This document shows positions 12,741 through 22,394 of a stretch of 64,000 bases of DNA, in pieces. Position 1 is the first letter of the stretch; each line of letters begins with the position of its first letter. The stretch covers positions 124,001 to 188,000 of the forward strand of contig NZ_JAKRVY010000002.1 of the NCBI RefSeq assembly GCF_023638055.1. Direction: 5' to 3'. Both the position numbers and the translations under genes were made by a program. Source of the stretch: Natranaeroarchaeum aerophilus. GTDB lineage: Archaea > Halobacteriota > Halobacteria > Halobacteriales > Natronoarchaeaceae. The notes under the pieces were generated by a model. It made no database searches. It was given only the letters and a program-made list of their open reading frames with translations, and was not told where the DNA came from.

Positions 12741-13301
12741 ATGGTACTGAAAGAATCCGATCCTGCACTGGAGGACGGAGACCCTGCGCCCGAGTTCGAA
12801 CTGCCAGCCGTCGACGGCGAAACCTACACGCTCGACTCGTTCGCGGACTGTGATGCACTCCTGATCGTTTTCACGTGTAACCACTGCCCGTACGCGAAGG
12901 CGAAGTTCGAGCATCTCAACGAGCTCGCGGGCTCGTACGATGACGCCGCAGTCGTCGGCATCAATCCCAACGACGCCGAGGAGTATCCCGACGACTCCTT
13001 CGAGTCGATGGTCGAGTACGTCGAGGACGGCGAGATTGCCTATGATGCCTACCTACGCGACGAGTCACAGGATGTCGCCGAGGCCTACGGCGCAGTCTGT
13101 ACACCCGATCCGTTCCTCTTCGCGAAGGAGGATGGCGAGTTCCGACTGGCCTATCAGGGGCGGCTGGACGACGCCATGGATCCTGATGCGGAGGCAACCG
13201 AATTCTACGTGCAGCAGGCGATCGAATCCATCCTCAGCGGTGAGCCGGTCACGGTCGAGTGGCGTCACTCGCAGGGTTGTTCGATCAAGTGGCGCGACTA
13301 G
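12741..13301 (+). CDS. Thioredoxin-fold redoxin (peroxiredoxin-like)
   Basis: This 186-residue protein has the AhpC/TSA-redoxin opening (EDGDPAPEFELPAVDGE) and the redox motif CNHCPYAK (a CxxC at about residues 52-55). This places it with thioredoxin-like reductases and cytosolic TlpA/ResA relatives. Later conserved elements are the GINPNDAEEYPDDS and TPDPFLF (cis-Pro) segments and the C-terminal SQGCSIKW with a third Cys. There is no signal peptide, so it works in the cytoplasm. It likely reduces peroxides or disulfides; the electron donor is unknown. Confidence 0.85.
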   Translation: MVLKESDPALEDGDPAPEFELPAVDGETYTLDSFADCDALLIVFTCNHCPYAKAKFEHLNELAGSYDDAAVVGINPNDAEEYPDDSFESMVEYVEDGEIAYDAYLRDESQDVAEAYGAVCTPDPFLFAKEDGEFRLAYQGRLDDAMDPDAEATEFYVQQAIESILSGEPVTVEWRHSQGCSIKWRD

Positions 13302-13530: not shown

Positions 13531-13540
13531 AATATTTATA
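13531..13540 (+). promoter_or_regulatory. TATA box of the amylase gene
   Basis: AATATTTATA is centred about 28 nt before the ATG at 13565. It lies at the end of an AT-rich island (13363-13540). The in-frame ATG at 13541 would abut this box, which argues for 13565 as the true, leaderless start. Confidence 0.6.
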
Positions 13541-13564
13541 ATGGATGATTCCTCAGCACGAACC

Positions 13565-15451
13565 ATGCCAGCAGATCACAACAAGCTGCGCAGTAGCGAG
13601 ATCACGCGCCGTGACGTCGTAAAAGGCGTCGGGGCAGCAGCCATCGGTGCCGCCGCCGCTGGATCTGCCAGTGGGACAGTTGCCGCAAACGACGCACCCG
13701 GTGAGACGTCGATGCTCCAGTACTTCCACACCGAGTGGACGGAGATGGAAGCCAACATGGACACCGTCGCCGACGCCGGATTCGACGCGATTCACGTGCC
13801 CGCCCCACAGGAGAGCGTGCTCACCGAGGAGGATCAGGACGAGGAACATCCCGAATACGGGCCGGAGTACCCGTATATGCCACCGCTTGGCTACCAACCG
13901 TACGACCGCACCTCGCTCGACAGCGAGTTCGGTACCGAAGCGGAGTTCCGCTCGATGATCGACGAGGCCCACGCACAGGGCATCGACGTGATTGTCGACA
14001 TCGTGCTCAATCACAACGGCTTCGGCCCCGAACTCGACGAGTTCCCGAACGTCAACTCCGAACACTTCTATCAGGAGGGCGGGATCGAGGGATGGATGTA
14101 CTCCTACGACCCCAACGACGACCGCTGTTACGACGAGAACCAGTGGGAATGTGATCCGTGGGCGATCGAACATCACGACCTCGTCGGCCTCCCGACGCTG
14201 GACTGGACCACCGACACGGTGCAGGACCTGGCGTACGACTATCTCCAGTTGATCGCCGACTGTGGCGCGGACGGCGTGCGTTGGGACGCCGCCAAACACA
14301 TGCACAACTGGGTGTTCGAGGACTTCCTCAACCCGTGGGCCGACGAGCTCGGCCTCTACACCGTCGGAGAGGTACTGTTCGAGCCGATCGGCTACATCGA
14401 CGAGTACGCCCAGACGGGGATGGATATCACCGACTATCCGCTGTTTTACACGATGAAGAACGATGCGTTCACTTCCGGTGGGGACTTCCGCGCTCTCGAC
14501 GGTTCAGATGCGGGCTACGTCGCCCAGAACCCGTTCCAGTCGCTGACGATGATCGCCAATCACGACAGCGCGCCCCCTGAACTCGAGGAGCTCGCCCGCG
14601 CGTTCATCCTCACTTACGAGGGCTACCCACGCGTCTACAACTATCTGATCGACTTCGACGACCCCGACCTGCAGAACCTGCTGTGGATCCGCGGGAATCT
14701 GCTCGGTGGGTCGGCGATCACCCGCTACGTCGACGAAGACCTCATCATTTTCGAGCGCGAGGACAACGCGATCGTCGCACTGAACAAAGGCTGGGGTGAC
14801 CGAAGCGAGTGGGTGAATGTTCCGTGGACCGACGAACCACTCGAAGAGTACACAGGCAACGCCACCGATACCGAGGCCAACAGTGACGGCTGGGCACCGA
14901 TCACCGCACCCGCAGGCGGCTGGGCCGTCTACGCGCCCGAAGATGCTGGCGGCGACGGCGGCGACGGCGGCGACGGCGGCGATGGCGGCGATGATGGCGA
15001 CGGCGACGGCAGCGACGATGACACGTCGGACGAACTCGAAGGCACCTACGCCCTTCGCGCGAACCACAGCGACAAGGCCATCGACGTTGAGAACATCTCG
15101 ACGGCTGACGGCGCGAACGTCCACCAGTGGGAGTACCTTGGCGGTGACAACCAGCATTGGGCTGTCGAGTCAGTCGGCGGCAGCGAGTACCGCCTGACTG
15201 CCCAGCACAGCGGCAACGTACTTGCGGCAGCAGGAACCGCTGACGGCGACAACGTCCAACAAGAGGAGTGGACTGGCGACGCGAACCAGCGCTGGACGCT
15301 CGACGACGTCGGCGACGGCTACGTCGTCGAAAACGTCGCCAGCGGTCGTGCGCTCGATGTCGACGGCATCTCCACGGACGACGGAGCGAACATCCACCAG
15401 TGGGAGTACGTCGGCGGCGACAACCAGGAGTGGACGCTCGATCCCGTCTGA
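13565..15451 (+). CDS. Tat-exported alpha-amylase (GH13) with ricin-type beta-trefoil lectin domain
   Basis: The 628-residue enzyme hydrolyses alpha-1,4 glucan outside the cell. A twin-arginine signal (Arg15-Arg16, TRRDVVKG, then an Ala/Gly-rich stretch) sends it out folded. The GH13 barrel has region I DIVLNHNG, nucleophile Asp241 (RWDAAKH), acid/base Glu269 (VGEVLF) and transition-state Asp334 (NHDSAP). A Gly/Asp linker (about 460-485) made of a repeated GGCGAC unit joins it to a C-terminal CBM13-like trefoil with three QxW-type repeats (NQHW, NQRW, NQEW) that should bind polysaccharide. The two surface-protein genes follow directly downstream. Confidence 0.95.
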   Translation: MPADHNKLRSSEITRRDVVKGVGAAAIGAAAAGSASGTVAANDAPGETSMLQYFHTEWTEMEANMDTVADAGFDAIHVPAPQESVLTEEDQDEEHPEYGPEYPYMPPLGYQPYDRTSLDSEFGTEAEFRSMIDEAHAQGIDVIVDIVLNHNGFGPELDEFPNVNSEHFYQEGGIEGWMYSYDPNDDRCYDENQWECDPWAIEHHDLVGLPTLDWTTDTVQDLAYDYLQLIADCGADGVRWDAAKHMHNWVFEDFLNPWADELGLYTVGEVLFEPIGYIDEYAQTGMDITDYPLFYTMKNDAFTSGGDFRALDGSDAGYVAQNPFQSLTMIANHDSAPPELEELARAFILTYEGYPRVYNYLIDFDDPDLQNLLWIRGNLLGGSAITRYVDEDLIIFEREDNAIVALNKGWGDRSEWVNVPWTDEPLEEYTGNATDTEANSDGWAPITAPAGGWAVYAPEDAGGDGGDGGDGGDGGDDGDGDGSDDDTSDELEGTYALRANHSDKAIDVENISTADGANVHQWEYLGGDNQHWAVESVGGSEYRLTAQHSGNVLAAAGTADGDNVQQEEWTGDANQRWTLDDVGDGYVVENVASGRALDVDGISTDDGANIHQWEYVGGDNQEWTLDPV

Positions 15452-15506
15452 TCGGGTCGATTTCGCCAACAGCCTTTTTGTTGCCGGATACATTCGGGTC
15501 TGTAGT

Positions 15507-17321
15507 ATGAAGTTTCGGGGCGACGAGCGCGGCGCGGCCATCCAGATCGGGGCCGTGATCCTGTTTGCCTTCATCGTCATCGCGATGGCGTCCTACCAGG
15601 CCACCGTCGTCCCCAGTCAGAACTCCGGCGTGGAGTTCAATCACAATCAGGACGTGCAGAGTCAGATGGTCGATCTGACGGCCGGACTTGACGCCTCCGC
15701 GCGTGATGGCACGCGGGGGTCGCATGCCGTTCGGCTCGGGACGACCTATCCCTCTCGGACGTTGTTCGTGAACCCCGGATCGCCGAGCGGGCAGTTGCGG
15801 ACGGTCGAGAGTGGGAATGGGCAGATATCGGTTGATATCACGACCGATGACGACGACCGGGTTGATAGATTCTGGACTGACTACGACGGTGATTTCGATA
15901 CGACAAGACTCCAGTACCAACCCAATTATAATGTCTACAATAACGCGCCAAGGACGGTCTACGAACACGGCGCGCTGTTCAACGAAAACCCAAGCGGTTC
16001 ACCGACTGAGATTATTTCCGGTGGACTCGTTGACGACGGCGAGATCACACTGGTCGCACTTCGAGGGGACGTACAGTCGGCGTCAAGTTCGGCGGTGTCG
16101 GTCGACCGCCGCGCGCTCAGTAGCTCCTCAAACACCGTAACAGTCGAGAGTGGGACGATCACGCTACCGATCGAGAACGAGGAGTACTGGAGGGACTGGG
16201 AAGAGCGAACCGACCCTGACGGCATCAGTATCTCAGTTCAACAGGATCCCGACAGGGTGATATTGGATATTACTGATACGGTCGAGATCCGCATGGCGGA
16301 AGTTGGCATCGGAAGCGTGTCACACGCAACACCGAATGAACGTGTCGAATATGCCGTCCTAACTGATCCCCAGCGACCGACAGTAACTGTCGAAGTCCGA
16401 GACGAATTCAACAACCCTGTATCGGGGGTCTCTTTCACTGGAATTGACGGAGGAGAAACGAACAGAGAGCGGACAGATCGGAACGGCGAGATCCGTGTCA
16501 GCGAGATCGACGACGGCGGATTCACGATCGAAGGGCTGGGAAAAATCGGTGACGTCGAATTCACCGATGAGGAACTCGAAGACGCGCCATCGACTGGAGG
16601 TGGTGGCGGAAGCGGCGGCAGCATCGCTTATTATGTTGACTGGCTCAGTTGTGACGAGCAACCGGACCAAGTGTGCAACGATGGCGCATATGAAATAGGC
16701 CAAGGAGAGGAGCGAGAGTTCTGGATGGAAGCGACCGACGACAATGGTAACGTTCGCGTGAGCGGTGCGCCAGTGGATTTCTACGTTAAGGATTCGGCAG
16801 GCGTCGTTGATGATCACGACCCAAAGTCGGGTCAAACAGGATCAGATGGTTACAGTACTACAGTAGTAGACGTCGCCAACGATGCGAGCGATGGAGAGAC
16901 GTTTACGCTCGGCACATCGAGCGGCGGTGATTTCGAAGAAATCACGATATTAATCGGTGAATCTACTGGTCCGCAACCGTCGTTCGGTACAGTATCGGCG
17001 CAGGCCAGTGGACCGGGTGGCGGACCAGTCGCAAACCGACTTGATTCGGTTGCATTCGATGGGAATGTCGACGACGTCGATTCGAGTGGATCGATCCGCT
17101 TCGAGTTGATCGACGACGGCGACATCTATTACGAGAACGAAAGACCGATGAGCGATACTATCGACACATCGGCTGAACTCGAAGGCGGTGACCGACGGGA
17201 CGTTCCTGTTGACGTCCGGATAACACTGTTAAGTAGCTCCGGTAACGTGTACGATCAGTTGACTGGGACGTTCAGCGACAACAACGAGGAACTGTCGACC
17301 GAAAACGGCGATCTCGAATGA
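15507..17321 (+). CDS. Large pilin-like surface protein with Ig-like domains
   Basis: The 604-residue product begins MKFRGDERGAAIQIGAVILF: a short charged segment, then a hydrophobic helix (about 11-31), like archaeal type IV pilin-like class III signals. The exposed part has at least two Ig-like beta domains (about 295-370 with VTVEVRDEFNNPVSGV; about 430-500) joined by a Gly/Ser linker. Its first 100 residues match the next gene's product (FNHNQ-V, RTLFVNP, LGT-YP). The segment 16250-17300 is less GC-rich than its surroundings. The gene overlaps the next by ATGA, so they form an operon, possibly with the amylase. No named family is recognised. A surface-adhesion role is inferred. Confidence 0.75.
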   Translation: MKFRGDERGAAIQIGAVILFAFIVIAMASYQATVVPSQNSGVEFNHNQDVQSQMVDLTAGLDASARDGTRGSHAVRLGTTYPSRTLFVNPGSPSGQLRTVESGNGQISVDITTDDDDRVDRFWTDYDGDFDTTRLQYQPNYNVYNNAPRTVYEHGALFNENPSGSPTEIISGGLVDDGEITLVALRGDVQSASSSAVSVDRRALSSSSNTVTVESGTITLPIENEEYWRDWEERTDPDGISISVQQDPDRVILDITDTVEIRMAEVGIGSVSHATPNERVEYAVLTDPQRPTVTVEVRDEFNNPVSGVSFTGIDGGETNRERTDRNGEIRVSEIDDGGFTIEGLGKIGDVEFTDEELEDAPSTGGGGGSGGSIAYYVDWLSCDEQPDQVCNDGAYEIGQGEEREFWMEATDDNGNVRVSGAPVDFYVKDSAGVVDDHDPKSGQTGSDGYSTTVVDVANDASDGETFTLGTSSGGDFEEITILIGESTGPQPSFGTVSAQASGPGGGPVANRLDSVAFDGNVDDVDSSGSIRFELIDDGDIYYENERPMSDTIDTSAELEGGDRRDVPVDVRITLLSSSGNVYDQLTGTFSDNNEELSTENGDLE

Positions 17322-20300
17322 GATCGGAGATGAATGACAATCTACGGGAGTCCGGATTTGGGGTAGACACCCGCGGCCAGGCCATCCAGATCGGCGCACT
17401 TCTCCTGTTCGCCGCGCTGATCGTCGCCGCGGCGGGCTATCAGGCCGGAATCGTCCCGGACCAGAACTCGGAGATCGAGTTCAACCACAACCAGCAGGTG
17501 CACGGCGAGATGGTCGAGTTGCGAAACGCCATGCTCGTCGCCAGCGACCGGCAGAGCACACAGACAAGACGCGTCACCCTCGGGACCCGATATCCGGAGC
17601 GGACGCTGTTCGTAAATCCGCCACCAGCGAGCGGTTCGCTACGGACGAGCGACCGGCAGGAGATCCGCTTTGAGAACGCCGACAGCACGGGCGCGACGAC
17701 GTTTACCACTCGGTCAATCGAGTATCGGCCACGCTATTACGAGTACCGTAGCGCGCCGACGACGGTGATCGAACACGGAGCGGTGTACAACGACCACGGG
17801 ACTCGCGTGCTGGCGATGACCGACACCGCGTTGATCGAAAACGGCGAGATCTCGCTCGTGCTGGTCGACGGTGAGTTGTCGCTGGCAGGCGATCGGGTCC
17901 GACAGGTATCGGTCGATGCGGCGTCGGCTCGAAGCAGGACGGTGCCGATCCAGTCGGCTGACGGCGACGAGTTTACCCTCGAACTCCCGACGCGACTGTC
18001 CGAGGAGGACTGGGCGGACACGGGCGCGCTCGACGGCCACGACTTCGAGGTGACAGACGGCGTGTTGCGTGTCACGCTCGATGGGGAGCGTTCGTACGAT
18101 CTCACGATAGCCCGACTCGGGTTCGGAGGCGATATCGAGCCAGCGGAGCCCGCGTATCTCACCGAAGTCGAGGGGGAGGACGACGTGACCGTCGAATTGC
18201 GCGATGAGTACAACGCGCCGATCGAAGGCGAGACGGTGACGCTGTCGGTCGCGGACGGTGATGGGAGACTCGAATCGGGGGACGCGACCGGTACCGAGAC
18301 CGATCTGGTGACCAATCGTGAGGGACAGGTCAGCGCGAGGTACGTTCCCGGCGATGGTGAGACAGGGACTGTGACGGTAGAGGCGTTCCACGAGAGTGAC
18401 AGCGTCGGCTCGGTCACCATCGAGTTCGACGTCGCCGGTTCGACCGGTAGCGGGGAATCACGACCGGGGAGCGGCGCAGTCGTCTGGAATGAGGACGATC
18501 CGACCGTCGCGGACGCCGACAGCGAGTTCTCGCTTGAAGCCACGAACAGCCGCGGTGACACACTCGCCAACTTTGCCGTCAGCGATCGGGATGTCGTGCA
18601 GATCGTCGACGCCCCGGAATCGTTCACTGACGGGACCGCAGAGCCGACGTTCGAGATCGATGGCGATGCGGCGAGCGCATCAGGCAGGGACAGCTGGTAC
18701 GCGTACGTCTTCGACCGATCTAGCGGCGACCGGCTGACACTCCAGCTACCGGATACCGTCGGTGTGGTCTGGGAGACACTCGAAGACTGGGCAGACGCCG
18801 ACGAGCAGGATGGTGTTGTCCACGAGACGTTCGGCGACCGACAGGACGACGCGATCCAGCTGGGCTACGAGGGAACGGACGACGGGCTCGTGGGATACTG
18901 GCCACTGGATGAGGAGGACGACACTGTTGCCGAAGACGTCTCTGGGACCGATAACGACGGCGATCACGCTGACAGTCCCGTGATCGGCGCTGACGGGCTG
19001 CTCGAAACGACGAGTTACGAGTTCGATGGAGAGAGTGGGCACGTCGAAGTGCCCCATGACGAGAGCCTGGAGATGAGCGACGGCGACACAGTGACGGTCT
19101 CCACGTGGGCGAATCAGGCGAGCGATCAGAGTGGCGAGGAATGGGTCGCACTCGTTCAGAAGTCCGACACCTCGTTCAACCTGCAGTTGGCCAACGGAAA
19201 CGAGCCGACGTTTACGATCCACGACGGAGGATGGAACGAGGCAAACAGCGGTATCGAACTGGAGACCGATCAGTGGTACCACCTCACGGGCATCTACGAC
19301 GGGGACGAAGCGCGGATTTACGTCGACGGCGAACTGGAAGGAACCACGACGGTCGATGGCGAAATGACCGACGCAAGTGAGTTCGGTGTTGGAATCGGTG
19401 AGAATCTGGATGCATCAGGGCGGCATCTCGACGGGCGGATGGACGAAGTACGATTGTACGATCGGGCGCTCACTGAAACCGAAGTAACTTCGCTCGAAGA
19501 CATTCGTACCGGCAGCTACACGAGCGGCGAAAGAACTGCTACGGAGCCGTTAGACCTCGAAACGCTCGAGCTGACAGGTGTCGACGTGACGACGAACGAC
19601 GGTGATGCGTTAGTACAGGTCGAAGCAGTCTCCGATGACGGCTCGACGGCGACCAGCGATCCGATCCCGCTAGATGGGGGCATCGAGAGCTACACCGTTG
19701 AGGGACTCACAGGAGAGGCCGACAGCTTCCGGCTGCTGGTCGAGATGGGGACACCGACCGTCGAGCGCTCGCCCGTCCTGTCCAGGGTCGAGCTATCGGG
19801 TGACAGCTTAGCAGACGACCCCGAGCCGGTCAGAGTGAACTTCCAGCCACCGGACGCCGAGTTCTCCGGGGAAACGCCTGAAGGCTACCTCGCAGATGTC
19901 GGCGAGGCGTTCGGCGATCACGATGCCGATGTCGACTACGGCTGGATCGACGGCCCAGTTGAAGAGTACCGCGAGCGTGGGAGTGTCGATGATGTCCGAT
20001 ACGACACGCTCGCACACATGAACTGGGACTCCGCTGACGAGGAGTCCTGGGCAGTCGCCATGCCGGACGGCACCTACGACGTGACCCTCGTAATGGGTGA
20101 TCCGGATCATACCGACTCTGAACATACGGTTACGGTCGAGGACACCACCTTCGTCGACGAGGAGGGCGAAGGCGGGTCGAACTTTGTCACACACCAAGGC
20201 ACCGTTGAGGTGACCGACGAACAGCTTCGGATTGACTCGGCTGGCCTCGGCTATAACCAGAAGCTGGCGTTCGTTGAGGTCACGCCCGCAGCCGACCCCG

Positions 20301-20938
20301 GATTGATCGACGACTTCGAGTACCCGACGAGTGTCCTTGACGATCAGTACCGTGTCAACTACGACGGATCGCCGACCAACTCCCACTCGACCGCAGACGG
20401 TCAGTTGGTCCTCGGCGACAGCTCCCGGCTCTACTCGGCACCCGGGCTCGGTGGTCCGGAGCCGTATGCAGAGCGGGACCTGAACTACTATCCCGAACAA
20501 GACGATCAGATCACCGCTACGACTACTCTCGGGCAAGAAGACGTCGTCACAACGTTCAATTTCGGCGTCGACTCCGATGAGCCGATTCGGGGATACACAG
20601 TAAAGCTCGATCCGACAAGCGAGGATCCGGGGAACGACGCGACCGTCCAGCTCTACAGCGAGGACGGCGATTTCGAGAACTACCCGAACCTCGACGATCA
20701 GGAGATCGACCTCGACGCCGGAACCGAGTACGAGATCGTCGTTGATTGGGGCGAAGACACAGTGCAGTTGCGTCTGTTTGAGGTGAATGGGGAGGAACTG
20801 ACGGATGAACCGCTTCGTGTCGACAGTATCGATGAGTTTGACAGCTATCGTGGTATCGCGGTTCAGAACAGGTATCTTGACGATCCCAACGATGGAGAAA
20901 CTGTCTGGGAGGAGATTCGGTCAGATATCAACGGCTAA
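17318..20938 (+). CDS. Giant pilin-like surface protein with Ig-like, LamG and malectin-like domains
   Basis: This 1206-residue protein repeats the layout of its neighbour: charged N-terminus, RGQAIQIGALLLFAALIVA helix (about 19-40), a conserved region (FNHNQQVHGEMVEL, RTLFVNPP), then a Big_1-like Ig domain (about 290-375, VTVELRDEYNAPIEGE). A LamG/concanavalin-like domain follows (about 522-727, from GLVGYWPLD to MDEVRLYDRALTETEV), then a malectin-like carbohydrate-binding domain (about 837-991, VRVNFQPPDAEF to LAFVEV) and a second concanavalin-like C-terminal domain. It has no C-terminal anchor, so the N-terminal helix holds it. Likely sugar-binding surface adhesin; no catalytic motif seen. 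ATG at 17330 is an alternative start. Confidence 0.75.
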   Translation: MRSEMNDNLRESGFGVDTRGQAIQIGALLLFAALIVAAAGYQAGIVPDQNSEIEFNHNQQVHGEMVELRNAMLVASDRQSTQTRRVTLGTRYPERTLFVNPPPASGSLRTSDRQEIRFENADSTGATTFTTRSIEYRPRYYEYRSAPTTVIEHGAVYNDHGTRVLAMTDTALIENGEISLVLVDGELSLAGDRVRQVSVDAASARSRTVPIQSADGDEFTLELPTRLSEEDWADTGALDGHDFEVTDGVLRVTLDGERSYDLTIARLGFGGDIEPAEPAYLTEVEGEDDVTVELRDEYNAPIEGETVTLSVADGDGRLESGDATGTETDLVTNREGQVSARYVPGDGETGTVTVEAFHESDSVGSVTIEFDVAGSTGSGESRPGSGAVVWNEDDPTVADADSEFSLEATNSRGDTLANFAVSDRDVVQIVDAPESFTDGTAEPTFEIDGDAASASGRDSWYAYVFDRSSGDRLTLQLPDTVGVVWETLEDWADADEQDGVVHETFGDRQDDAIQLGYEGTDDGLVGYWPLDEEDDTVAEDVSGTDNDGDHADSPVIGADGLLETTSYEFDGESGHVEVPHDESLEMSDGDTVTVSTWANQASDQSGEEWVALVQKSDTSFNLQLANGNEPTFTIHDGGWNEANSGIELETDQWYHLTGIYDGDEARIYVDGELEGTTTVDGEMTDASEFGVGIGENLDASGRHLDGRMDEVRLYDRALTETEVTSLEDIRTGSYTSGERTATEPLDLETLELTGVDVTTNDGDALVQVEAVSDDGSTATSDPIPLDGGIESYTVEGLTGEADSFRLLVEMGTPTVERSPVLSRVELSGDSLADDPEPVRVNFQPPDAEFSGETPEGYLADVGEAFGDHDADVDYGWIDGPVEEYRERGSVDDVRYDTLAHMNWDSADEESWAVAMPDGTYDVTLVMGDPDHTDSEHTVTVEDTTFVDEEGEGGSNFVTHQGTVEVTDEQLRIDSAGLGYNQKLAFVEVTPAADPGLIDDFEYPTSVLDDQYRVNYDGSPTNSHSTADGQLVLGDSSRLYSAPGLGGPEPYAERDLNYYPEQDDQITATTTLGQEDVVTTFNFGVDSDEPIRGYTVKLDPTSEDPGNDATVQLYSEDGDFENYPNLDDQEIDLDAGTEYEIVVDWGEDTVQLRLFEVNGEELTDEPLRVDSIDEFDSYRGIAVQNRYLDDPNDGETVWEEIRSDING

Positions 20939-21056: not shown

Positions 21057-22394
21057 ATGACTGAAGTCGGTATCGACGCCATCGAGATCAGGACGGGCAA
21101 CCTCAGACTCGACCTGCCGAACACGTTCGCGCCCCAGAAGGGCGAAGATCCCGAGAAGTACACGAAGGGGCTCGGGCTGACCGGAAGCTCGTTCCCGGAT
21201 AGCTACGAGGATATCGTGACGATGGCGGCCAACGCCTCCCATCGGCTGATGGAGCGCAAAGGACTCGAACCCGAGGATATCGGACGGATCGACGTCGCGA
21301 CCGAGAGCGCCTTCGACAACTCCAAGCCGGTGTCGACGTACGTCGCAGGCTGTCTCGAACAGGTCTACGAGGGCGATTTCCACCACGCGAACAAGGGCGA
21401 GCGGAAGTTCGCCTGTATCGCGGGCACCCAGAGTCTGGACGACGCGTATAACTGGATCCGGGCTGGACGAAATCGCGGCAAAGCGGCGATCGTGATCGCG
21501 ACGGATACGGCGCTGTACGCGCGGGACGACCCCGGCGAGGCGACACAGGGTGCGGGGGCAGTTGCCATGCTCATCGACGAGGATCCGGATCTGGTTTCGC
21601 TGTCCGTCGAGCAGGGGTATGGCTCGGCTGACGAGACGGACTTTCTCAAGCCCAACCAGCAGTTCCCGAGCGTCGACGGCAAGCGATCGGTGCAGGTGTA
21701 TCTCGCGCGGATGCGCGAGGCGCTGGAGGACTACAAGTCGGTGGCGGGGGCCATCCACCCCGACGACTTCGCGTACGGTCCCTTCCACACGCCGTTCCCG
21801 GGGATGGTGCGCAAGGCCGCCGTGCTGGCGTACCGGAACCTGATCCGCGATACGGACATCGCCGACGTGCTGGCCGAGGAGATCGGCGAGCAGCCCCGGC
21901 GCGATGACTTTGCGGATGACGACGCCTTCTTCGACGCACTGACCGAGTACACCGACGCGCTCTCGGGGACCGAACGGTATCAGGACTGGTACGGGGCCAC
22001 GATCGAACCGACGCTCGGTATCGCTCGTGAGGTCGGCAACTGGTACACCGGATCGGTTCACGTCGCGCGGATCAGCGCGCTCCGTCACGCCGCAGCAAAC
22101 GACATCGACCTCGCCGGGCAGCGCCTGCTGGTCGGCTCCTACGGCAGCGGGGCACAGGCCGAGATCCATACCGAGACGGTCCAGGAGAACTGGCGCGAGG
22201 AGATCGAGGCGCTGAACGTCGACGAGCAGCTCGATCGCCGGTACGAGCTTACGTTCTCCGAGTACGAGGAGATCCACGACGCGCACAACCACGAGATGGA
22301 CACCGAAGTCGAGGAGCTCACGACGCCCGAGTCCGAGTTCGTCTTCGACGGCTGGGGCCGGATGGGCGAGCGCAAGTACCGGTACGTCGAGTAG
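21057..22394 (+). CDS. hmgB: Hydroxymethylglutaryl-CoA synthase
   Basis: This 445-residue enzyme condenses acetyl-CoA with acetoacetyl-CoA to HMG-CoA, the entry to the mevalonate pathway that feeds archaeal isoprenoid lipids. The catalytic Cys120 lies in KFACIAGTQS; the Glu of VATESAFDNSKP and the later FHTPFPGM (catalytic His) and GSYGSGAQAE segments are conserved. Length is typical of the archaeal/haloarchaeal type. A TATA box just upstream and a T6 run at the end suggest a single-gene transcript. Confidence 0.97.
   Translation: MTEVGIDAIEIRTGNLRLDLPNTFAPQKGEDPEKYTKGLGLTGSSFPDSYEDIVTMAANASHRLMERKGLEPEDIGRIDVATESAFDNSKPVSTYVAGCLEQVYEGDFHHANKGERKFACIAGTQSLDDAYNWIRAGRNRGKAAIVIATDTALYARDDPGEATQGAGAVAMLIDEDPDLVSLSVEQGYGSADETDFLKPNQQFPSVDGKRSVQVYLARMREALEDYKSVAGAIHPDDFAYGPFHTPFPGMVRKAAVLAYRNLIRDTDIADVLAEEIGEQPRRDDFADDDAFFDALTEYTDALSGTERYQDWYGATIEPTLGIAREVGNWYTGSVHVARISALRHAAANDIDLAGQRLLVGSYGSGAQAEIHTETVQENWREEIEALNVDEQLDRRYELTFSEYEEIHDAHNHEMDTEVEELTTPESEFVFDGWGRMGERKYRYVE

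Follow-up and report, generated by a model that had tools for sequence, protein, structure and literature searches.

Pilin-like surface proteins with variable cargo at an hmgS-linked locus of haloarchaea, and the amylase gene beside them

The 64,000-nucleotide stretch of Natranaeroarchaeum aerophilus DNA analysed here (the window; positions 124001-188000 of contig C2 in the 3.29 Mb genome G000) carries a predicted secreted alpha-amylase directly ahead of two surface proteins, here called A and B. The locus raises the question of whether the three genes serve one purpose, as supposed in a preliminary description that read them as a surface module for starch or glycan capture and digestion, or whether A and B belong to a system of their own. 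Gene A (15507..17321, plus strand) encodes 604 aa, an N-terminal domain (N-domain) followed by immunoglobulin (Ig)-like cargo, and gene B (17318..20938, plus strand, starting at 17318 or 17330) encodes 1206 aa; the two overlap by ATGA at 17318-17321. The amylase stop lies 55 bp before A, all on one strand, and 118 bp after B comes the right neighbour, hmgS (21057..22394, plus strand), whose product matches the NCBIfam model HMG_CoAsyn_Halo at 1.5e-263 and is a hydroxymethylglutaryl (HMG)-CoA synthase, an enzyme of lipid synthesis. These coordinates confirm the three same-strand genes and the overlap as first drawn, while the epithet 'giant', applied to both surface proteins, suits B and not A. 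On balance, A and B are probably type IV pilin-like proteins of modular build, encoded at an hmgS-linked locus, that present interchangeable cargo of an adhesive or lectin kind.

The shared N-domain and its place beside hmgS

Homology between A and B extends through their first ~330 residues and further (BLASTP 7e-49; identity 31% across the full alignment). The relatedness of the two N-termini had been recognised before; the shared length had then been put at 100 residues, which the BLASTP alignment extends to about 330. In A the N-domain occupies 15507..16481 (plus strand) and comprises a putative class III signal, a long helix and a beta head; that of B spans 17357..18433 (plus strand). A carries RGAA and B carries RGQA, each followed by a hydrophobic tract, and this arrangement is conserved in an alignment (A1) of 30 N-domains, namely the two from the window and 28 relatives; we take these tetrapeptides to be the FlaFind-type class III, or prepilin, signal motif. 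Three truncated or unanchored sequences (L050, L057 and L067) were left out of this alignment, of the tree and of the pair counts considered below. An AlphaFold model of the first 300 aa of B predicts a helix at residues 6-65, followed by strands and one short helix (predicted local distance difference test, pLDDT, 92; predicted template modelling score, pTM, 0.86), that is, the long N-terminal helix with a globular head expected of a pilin. Such a helix-plus-head arrangement is the pilin 'lollipop' layout, as described in the portion of PMC9934059 available to us. Signal motif and model together support the pilin-like character first proposed for these proteins.

Matches to known families point, weakly, in the same direction. 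The best solved relatives by sequence are two haloarchaeal or archaeal pilins, aligned over 29 positions at the weak E values of 0.046 and 0.051, the former being Natrinema PilA2. Among 64 members of the family chosen for a Pfam survey and scanned at E 0.001, Pilin_N was found in 2 and DUF7289 in 5, and in members inspected singly sub-threshold matches to these models start at the N-terminal helix. Neither A nor B has an NCBIfam match at E 0.01, and no Pfam model covers the shared N-domain. A viral origin of the N-domain was considered and rejected: single-protein patterns found no relatives of it in viral_contigs, A is without a PHROG match, and the PHROG matches of B are confined to the laminin G (LamG) region of its cargo cassette.

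The N-domain profile matches 129 of the 145 genomes of the order (E 1e-6), mostly in single copy. In a sample of 196 genomes from the phylum it matches 128, in many cases over the helix only. In G233, G311 and G198, outside the order, some of the matches lie in open frames of ~2000 codons, larger than the haloarchaeal ones listed. HMG-CoA synthase is present in 143/145 genomes. Counting N-domain places among the matches listed, both genes occur in 127 genomes; they lie at most 6 kb apart in 107, and the pilin-like gene is upstream on the same strand in 105. A second set consists of 80 named loci, 74 with a complete open reading frame (the frame runs off the contig in six) and 70 with at least 2.5 kb downstream; hmgS follows on the same strand in 61 of these 70, with a gap of at most 200 bp in 37. 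A promoter-like TTT[TA] stands at -42..-24 in 66 of 73 relatives with a clear start, compared with 0-4 in seven control windows further upstream, and the strict TTTWWW box in 44 of the 73 (controls 0-1); at L111 no start could be assigned. Within 4 kb upstream of the pilin-like gene (loci L070-L149), two protein families are seen repeatedly, the first at 52 and the second at 38 of 64 loci. These are presumably DUF2150 and a TatD-like protein, and their recurrence suggests a core block around the pilin-like gene in most lineages, though not in the window. In Haloferax volcanii, HVO_2419 is hmgS, with HVO_2418 and HVO_2420 as possible neighbours, according to the part of PMC13358004 available; no mention of HVO_2418 or HVO_2420 was found in the open-access papers searched.

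In a tree of 105 rows, A groups with the gene of the sister species and the first copy in G003 (support 86); B groups with the other G003 copy, the second (94). The supports are moderate, but most likely the tandem A-B duplication predates the divergence of the two genera, and B was lost in the sister species. The named loci L130 and L133 have two copies as well.

The N-terminus could, however, be a mere signal-anchor, making A and B stand-alone membrane-anchored surface proteins that form no filament and whose cargo, acting as tether or stalk, passes through the S-layer. The very large and variable cargo, the prevalence of one copy per genome, the lack of an adjacent pilus ATPase gene, and the lack of a hydrophobic C-terminal anchor (judged by eye from the last 30 residues as listed) would all suit such proteins. 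On the other side, the conserved polar second half of the 60-residue helix and the conserved head look made to pack, and we regard the stand-alone arrangement as doubtful.

Cargo differs sharply between close relatives

The N-domain, the promoter region and hmgS are kept in close relatives whose cargo differs sharply. After merging rows with identical N-domain starts, 99 members remained, among which 45 pairs have N-domains at least 70% identical and comparable cargo; in 22 of the 45, cargo identity falls below 0.35. Mean identities in these 22 pairs, 10 of them disjoint, are 0.79 for the N-domain, 0.26 for the cargo and 0.94 for hmgS. C-terminal ends are thus often unrelated between close relatives whose N-domains are 70-92% and whose hmgS products are 86-100% identical. 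The boundaries can be followed at the DNA level: between L115 and L129, identity is 96% just upstream, declines from 94 to 76% through the N-domain, drops to 51-55% in the cargo and returns to 84-93% from hmgS onward, and the profiles of L117/L138, L074/L078 and L084/L126 resemble this one. We infer that cargo is exchanged by recombination.

The cargo of B provides a further instance. Its cassette (18767..20909, plus strand, 2143 bp, delimited by blastn and protein search) recurs at 83.7% nucleotide identity at ~188057-190199 of contig C3 of the same genome (L155 8057-10199), inside a 1458-aa surface protein with a different N-terminus. The first ~345 residues of the cassette, its LamG half, are 24-28% identical to LamG proteins of tailed haloviruses, HVTV-2 UBF22945.1 and HHTV-2 gp63 (L164 5932-7062; L165 4932-6035); these are virus genes and, unlike B, have no pilin part. 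Relatives of the cassette were absent from viral_contigs. The HVTV-2 LamG gene adjoins a gene for a T4 gp9/gp10-like baseplate protein.

Let us suppose instead that no exchange of cargo takes place, and that it changes through very rapid divergence driven by diversifying selection, for example from viruses. Such a course is favoured by L107/L114 and L108/L110, in which identity declines gradually. Three features speak against it: third codon bases drop along with amino acids in the cargo; L113 and L119 differ in an internal island at codons 300-600 (38-62% identity in amino acids, 43-56% in third bases) whose flanks are far more alike (in amino acids, 90-100% ahead of the island and 76-100% beyond it); and the cassette of B has been pasted into another protein. 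We therefore consider fast divergence unlikely.

As to what the cargo consists of, the preliminary description had ascribed Ig, LamG and malectin-like domains to B and had called both proteins sugar-binding. The LamG domain of B (Laminin_G_3; 19025..19486, plus strand) is firmly matched in Pfam (2.9e-31), and a Big_1-type Ig-like domain (18182..18427, plus strand) is matched at E 4.2e-5, below the family cut-off; in A, Big_1 is weak as well (0.0023). The malectin-like region was not confirmed: its best Pfam match, AGA-YXIM_GBD, stays under the cut-off at E 0.039, the structure model of the last 375 residues of B, built on a three-row alignment, reaches pLDDT 40, and the best match in a sequence search of the PDB has E 0.75. 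Only one lectin-type domain, the LamG of B, is supported; Pfam finds no lectin domain in A. Among the 64 relatives scanned, LamG is present in 2, the window's B included.

Taken as modular pilin-like proteins, A and B might work as follows. A prepilin peptidase would cut their signal, and the helix would serve as an anchor, either to the membrane or within a type IV filament, perhaps making them minor or tip subunits. The cargo, an Ig-like stalk with the LamG lectin added in B, might then contact glycans, surfaces, cells or viruses, and recombinational exchange of this cargo would allow a lineage to alter the surface with which it makes contact. One Peptidase_A24 gene and seven genes for T2SSE-type ATPases are present in the genome.

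Several observations weigh against this picture. The beta head has no confident match to any solved fold, the whole N-domain model having been searched (Foldseek found no PDB match at E 0.001, and a second comparison, VIA, gave a best Z of 3.1), which is not proof of a new fold, and A and B themselves do not reach Pilin_N in Pfam. None of the seven T2SSE-type genes lies in the window, and with no pilus assembly ATPase gene there, incorporation into a filament is unproven. At the cut-off used, 16/145 genomes are without the N-domain. More similar cargo is kept in 23 of the 45 close pairs, and the two gradually declining pairs named above lack a sharp boundary; in L060/L104, the N-domain is at 0.93 and the cargo at 0.99. 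Finally, the rarity of LamG means that glycan binding is no family trait.

A bolder form of the modular pilin-like reading may be entertained as a tentative possibility, in which the locus is a hypervariable cargo slot at a core spot, the pilin part and hmgS serve as homology arms through which lineages trade outer domains and each acquires a contact surface of its own, some of the cargo is related to tailed halovirus proteins, and the whole would be a haloarchaeal counterpart of the VARTIG system compared below.

The amylase gene and its neighbours

The amylase gene (13565..15451, plus strand; alternative longer start at 13541) encodes a predicted secreted glycoside hydrolase family 13 (GH13) alpha-amylase with a twin-arginine translocation (Tat) signal and a ricin-B tail resembling carbohydrate-binding module family 13 (CBM13). 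The Tat motif, TRRDVVKG, and the Pfam domains (Alpha-amylase at 1.3e-16, Alpha-amy_C_pro, and the ricin-B/CBM13-like tail at 4.5e-46) agree with how the enzyme was first described; the tail, a predicted beta-trefoil, lies at 15047..15433 (plus strand; PF00652/PF14200). The translation contains DIVLNHN, DGVRWDAAKH, GEV and NHDS, which we take to be the GH13 catalytic motifs; judged by its residues, the protein is a predicted amylase having a GH13 catalytic domain with the conserved acidic residues. A paralogue in the same genome (G000:C1:295271-296536, L150) is 87% identical in amino acids and 83% in DNA over the catalytic part, and its DNA similarity to the window amylase ends before the ricin tail.

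The amylase and A appear to be started separately. A pattern scan places a promoter-like TTTATA box (13535..13540, plus strand) at -30 to -25 of the ATG at 13565, the leaderless start of the amylase, and a promoter-like TTTTT box (15475..15479, plus strand) at -32 to -28 of the ATG of gene A, before which the strict TTTWWW box is absent. This box-to-start spacing is that of leaderless haloarchaeal transcripts, so the amylase and A probably have separate starts, with B following A.

Further out to the left in the window stands a gene for an AhpC/TSA-type peroxiredoxin (12741..13301, plus strand; Pfam AhpC-TSA 1.5e-15), which in the sister species adjoins the relative of A (L040). The order in that species (G001) is AhpC, a gap of ~217 bp, the nearest relative of A, and hmgS. 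The gap aligns to the ricin tail of the amylase with a score of 113, where 500 shuffles reach at most 57 and 145 other pieces of the window at most 49, which argues that such a tail was once present and then decayed, while A was retained. The decayed ricin-type tail can be placed at L040:9175-9310, between ahpC and the nearest relative of A.

Relatives of the amylase (E 1e-20) occur in 23/145 genomes of the order, and in only one of these, the window's own, do they lie near an N-domain gene among the matches listed. The same triplet, for which a search in other haloarchaea had been suggested, did not turn up: none of 110 other loci contains an amylase relative (E 1e-5), these loci comprising 30 regions and the 80 named loci, of which 61 reach about 8 kb on both sides. 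Homologues of the large proteins away from glycan genes had been named as evidence against a starch module, and this holds for the amylase; no systematic survey was made of other glycan enzymes around the relatives. To us the amylase looks like a local newcomer, a separate secreted enzyme whose presence here is confined to the window's genus.

A single unit for capturing and digesting starch, composed of the amylase, A and B, is suggested by their common strand, the 55 bp between the amylase and A, the LamG of B and the ricin-type tail of the enzyme. The module was nevertheless rejected as highly improbable, given that the amylase is linked to such genes nowhere else, that its tail has decayed in the sister species and that A has a promoter-like box of its own. 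Scarcely credible, too, is a display of sugar-binding proteins that serves nutrient uptake in the manner of a bindosome, to which the prepilin-type signal on large proteins and the lectin domain of B might point, since Pfam finds no substrate-binding-protein domain in A or B and LamG is confined to the two members already mentioned.

Likeness to known systems

No paper on an hmgS-linked pilin-like family was found in the open-access literature, which misses most subscription journals. On the modular pilin-like reading, the majority of haloarchaea would have, at one constant chromosomal address, a pilin-like gene still without a name, with its outer end swapped between close species, and self-recognition, adhesion and virus receptor choice would become testable at a single locus in tractable strains.

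The nearest functional parallel is perhaps Streptococcus sanguinis PilC, which, in the sections of PMC9934059 available, joins a pilin part to an Ig-like domain and a concanavalin A-like lectin, binds glycans and is stabilised by PilA. B likewise appears to have a class III signal and a pilin part, followed by an Ig-like domain and a concanavalin A-type lectin in the same order, and A, the smaller protein, could by analogy be to B what PilA is to PilC in that partial account. The differences are that no sequence relation to PilC is shown, the pilin head is different, the gene stands next to hmgS and its cargo varies from one species to another. PilC is also encoded in a pil locus, and B is not, there being no T2SSE match in the window, so the PilA-PilC likeness is one of analogy and not of membership. 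Archaeal proteins of more than 1000 aa with type IV pilin-like signals have been reported (Szabo et al., 2007, as cited in PMC4371748, seen in part), and B resembles them in its size and its prepilin-type signal; the hmgS-linked family, the N-domain and the exchange of cargo are not described in what was available of that account.

VARTIG of the Thermococcales owes the variability of its C-terminal Ig region to recombination, and no counterpart in other archaea is reported in the available part of the source (Makarova et al., in PMC8416519). The family described here is similarly a large surface protein with a variable C-terminal region, mosaic in places, where recombination would have acted. 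It differs in its prepilin-type N-domain and in consisting of one gene, at a constant position in the core genome, with no array of small downstream genes; the VARTIG gene order, a large Ig protein (arCOG07710) with variable small genes after it, does not recur, as the gene downstream is hmgS in 105 of the 127 genomes (among the N-domain matches listed). Should cargo exchange be confirmed, the published statement that archaea outside the Thermococcales show no VARTIG-like variability would need qualification. In the cell-wall genomic island of Haloquadratum walsbyi, homologous recombination diversifies surface genes and has been proposed to limit virus infection (PMC4535781, from the portion available). 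That island comprises many genes and varies within one species, whereas at the hmgS-linked locus it is the C-terminal part of one pilin-like gene that varies, across the order.

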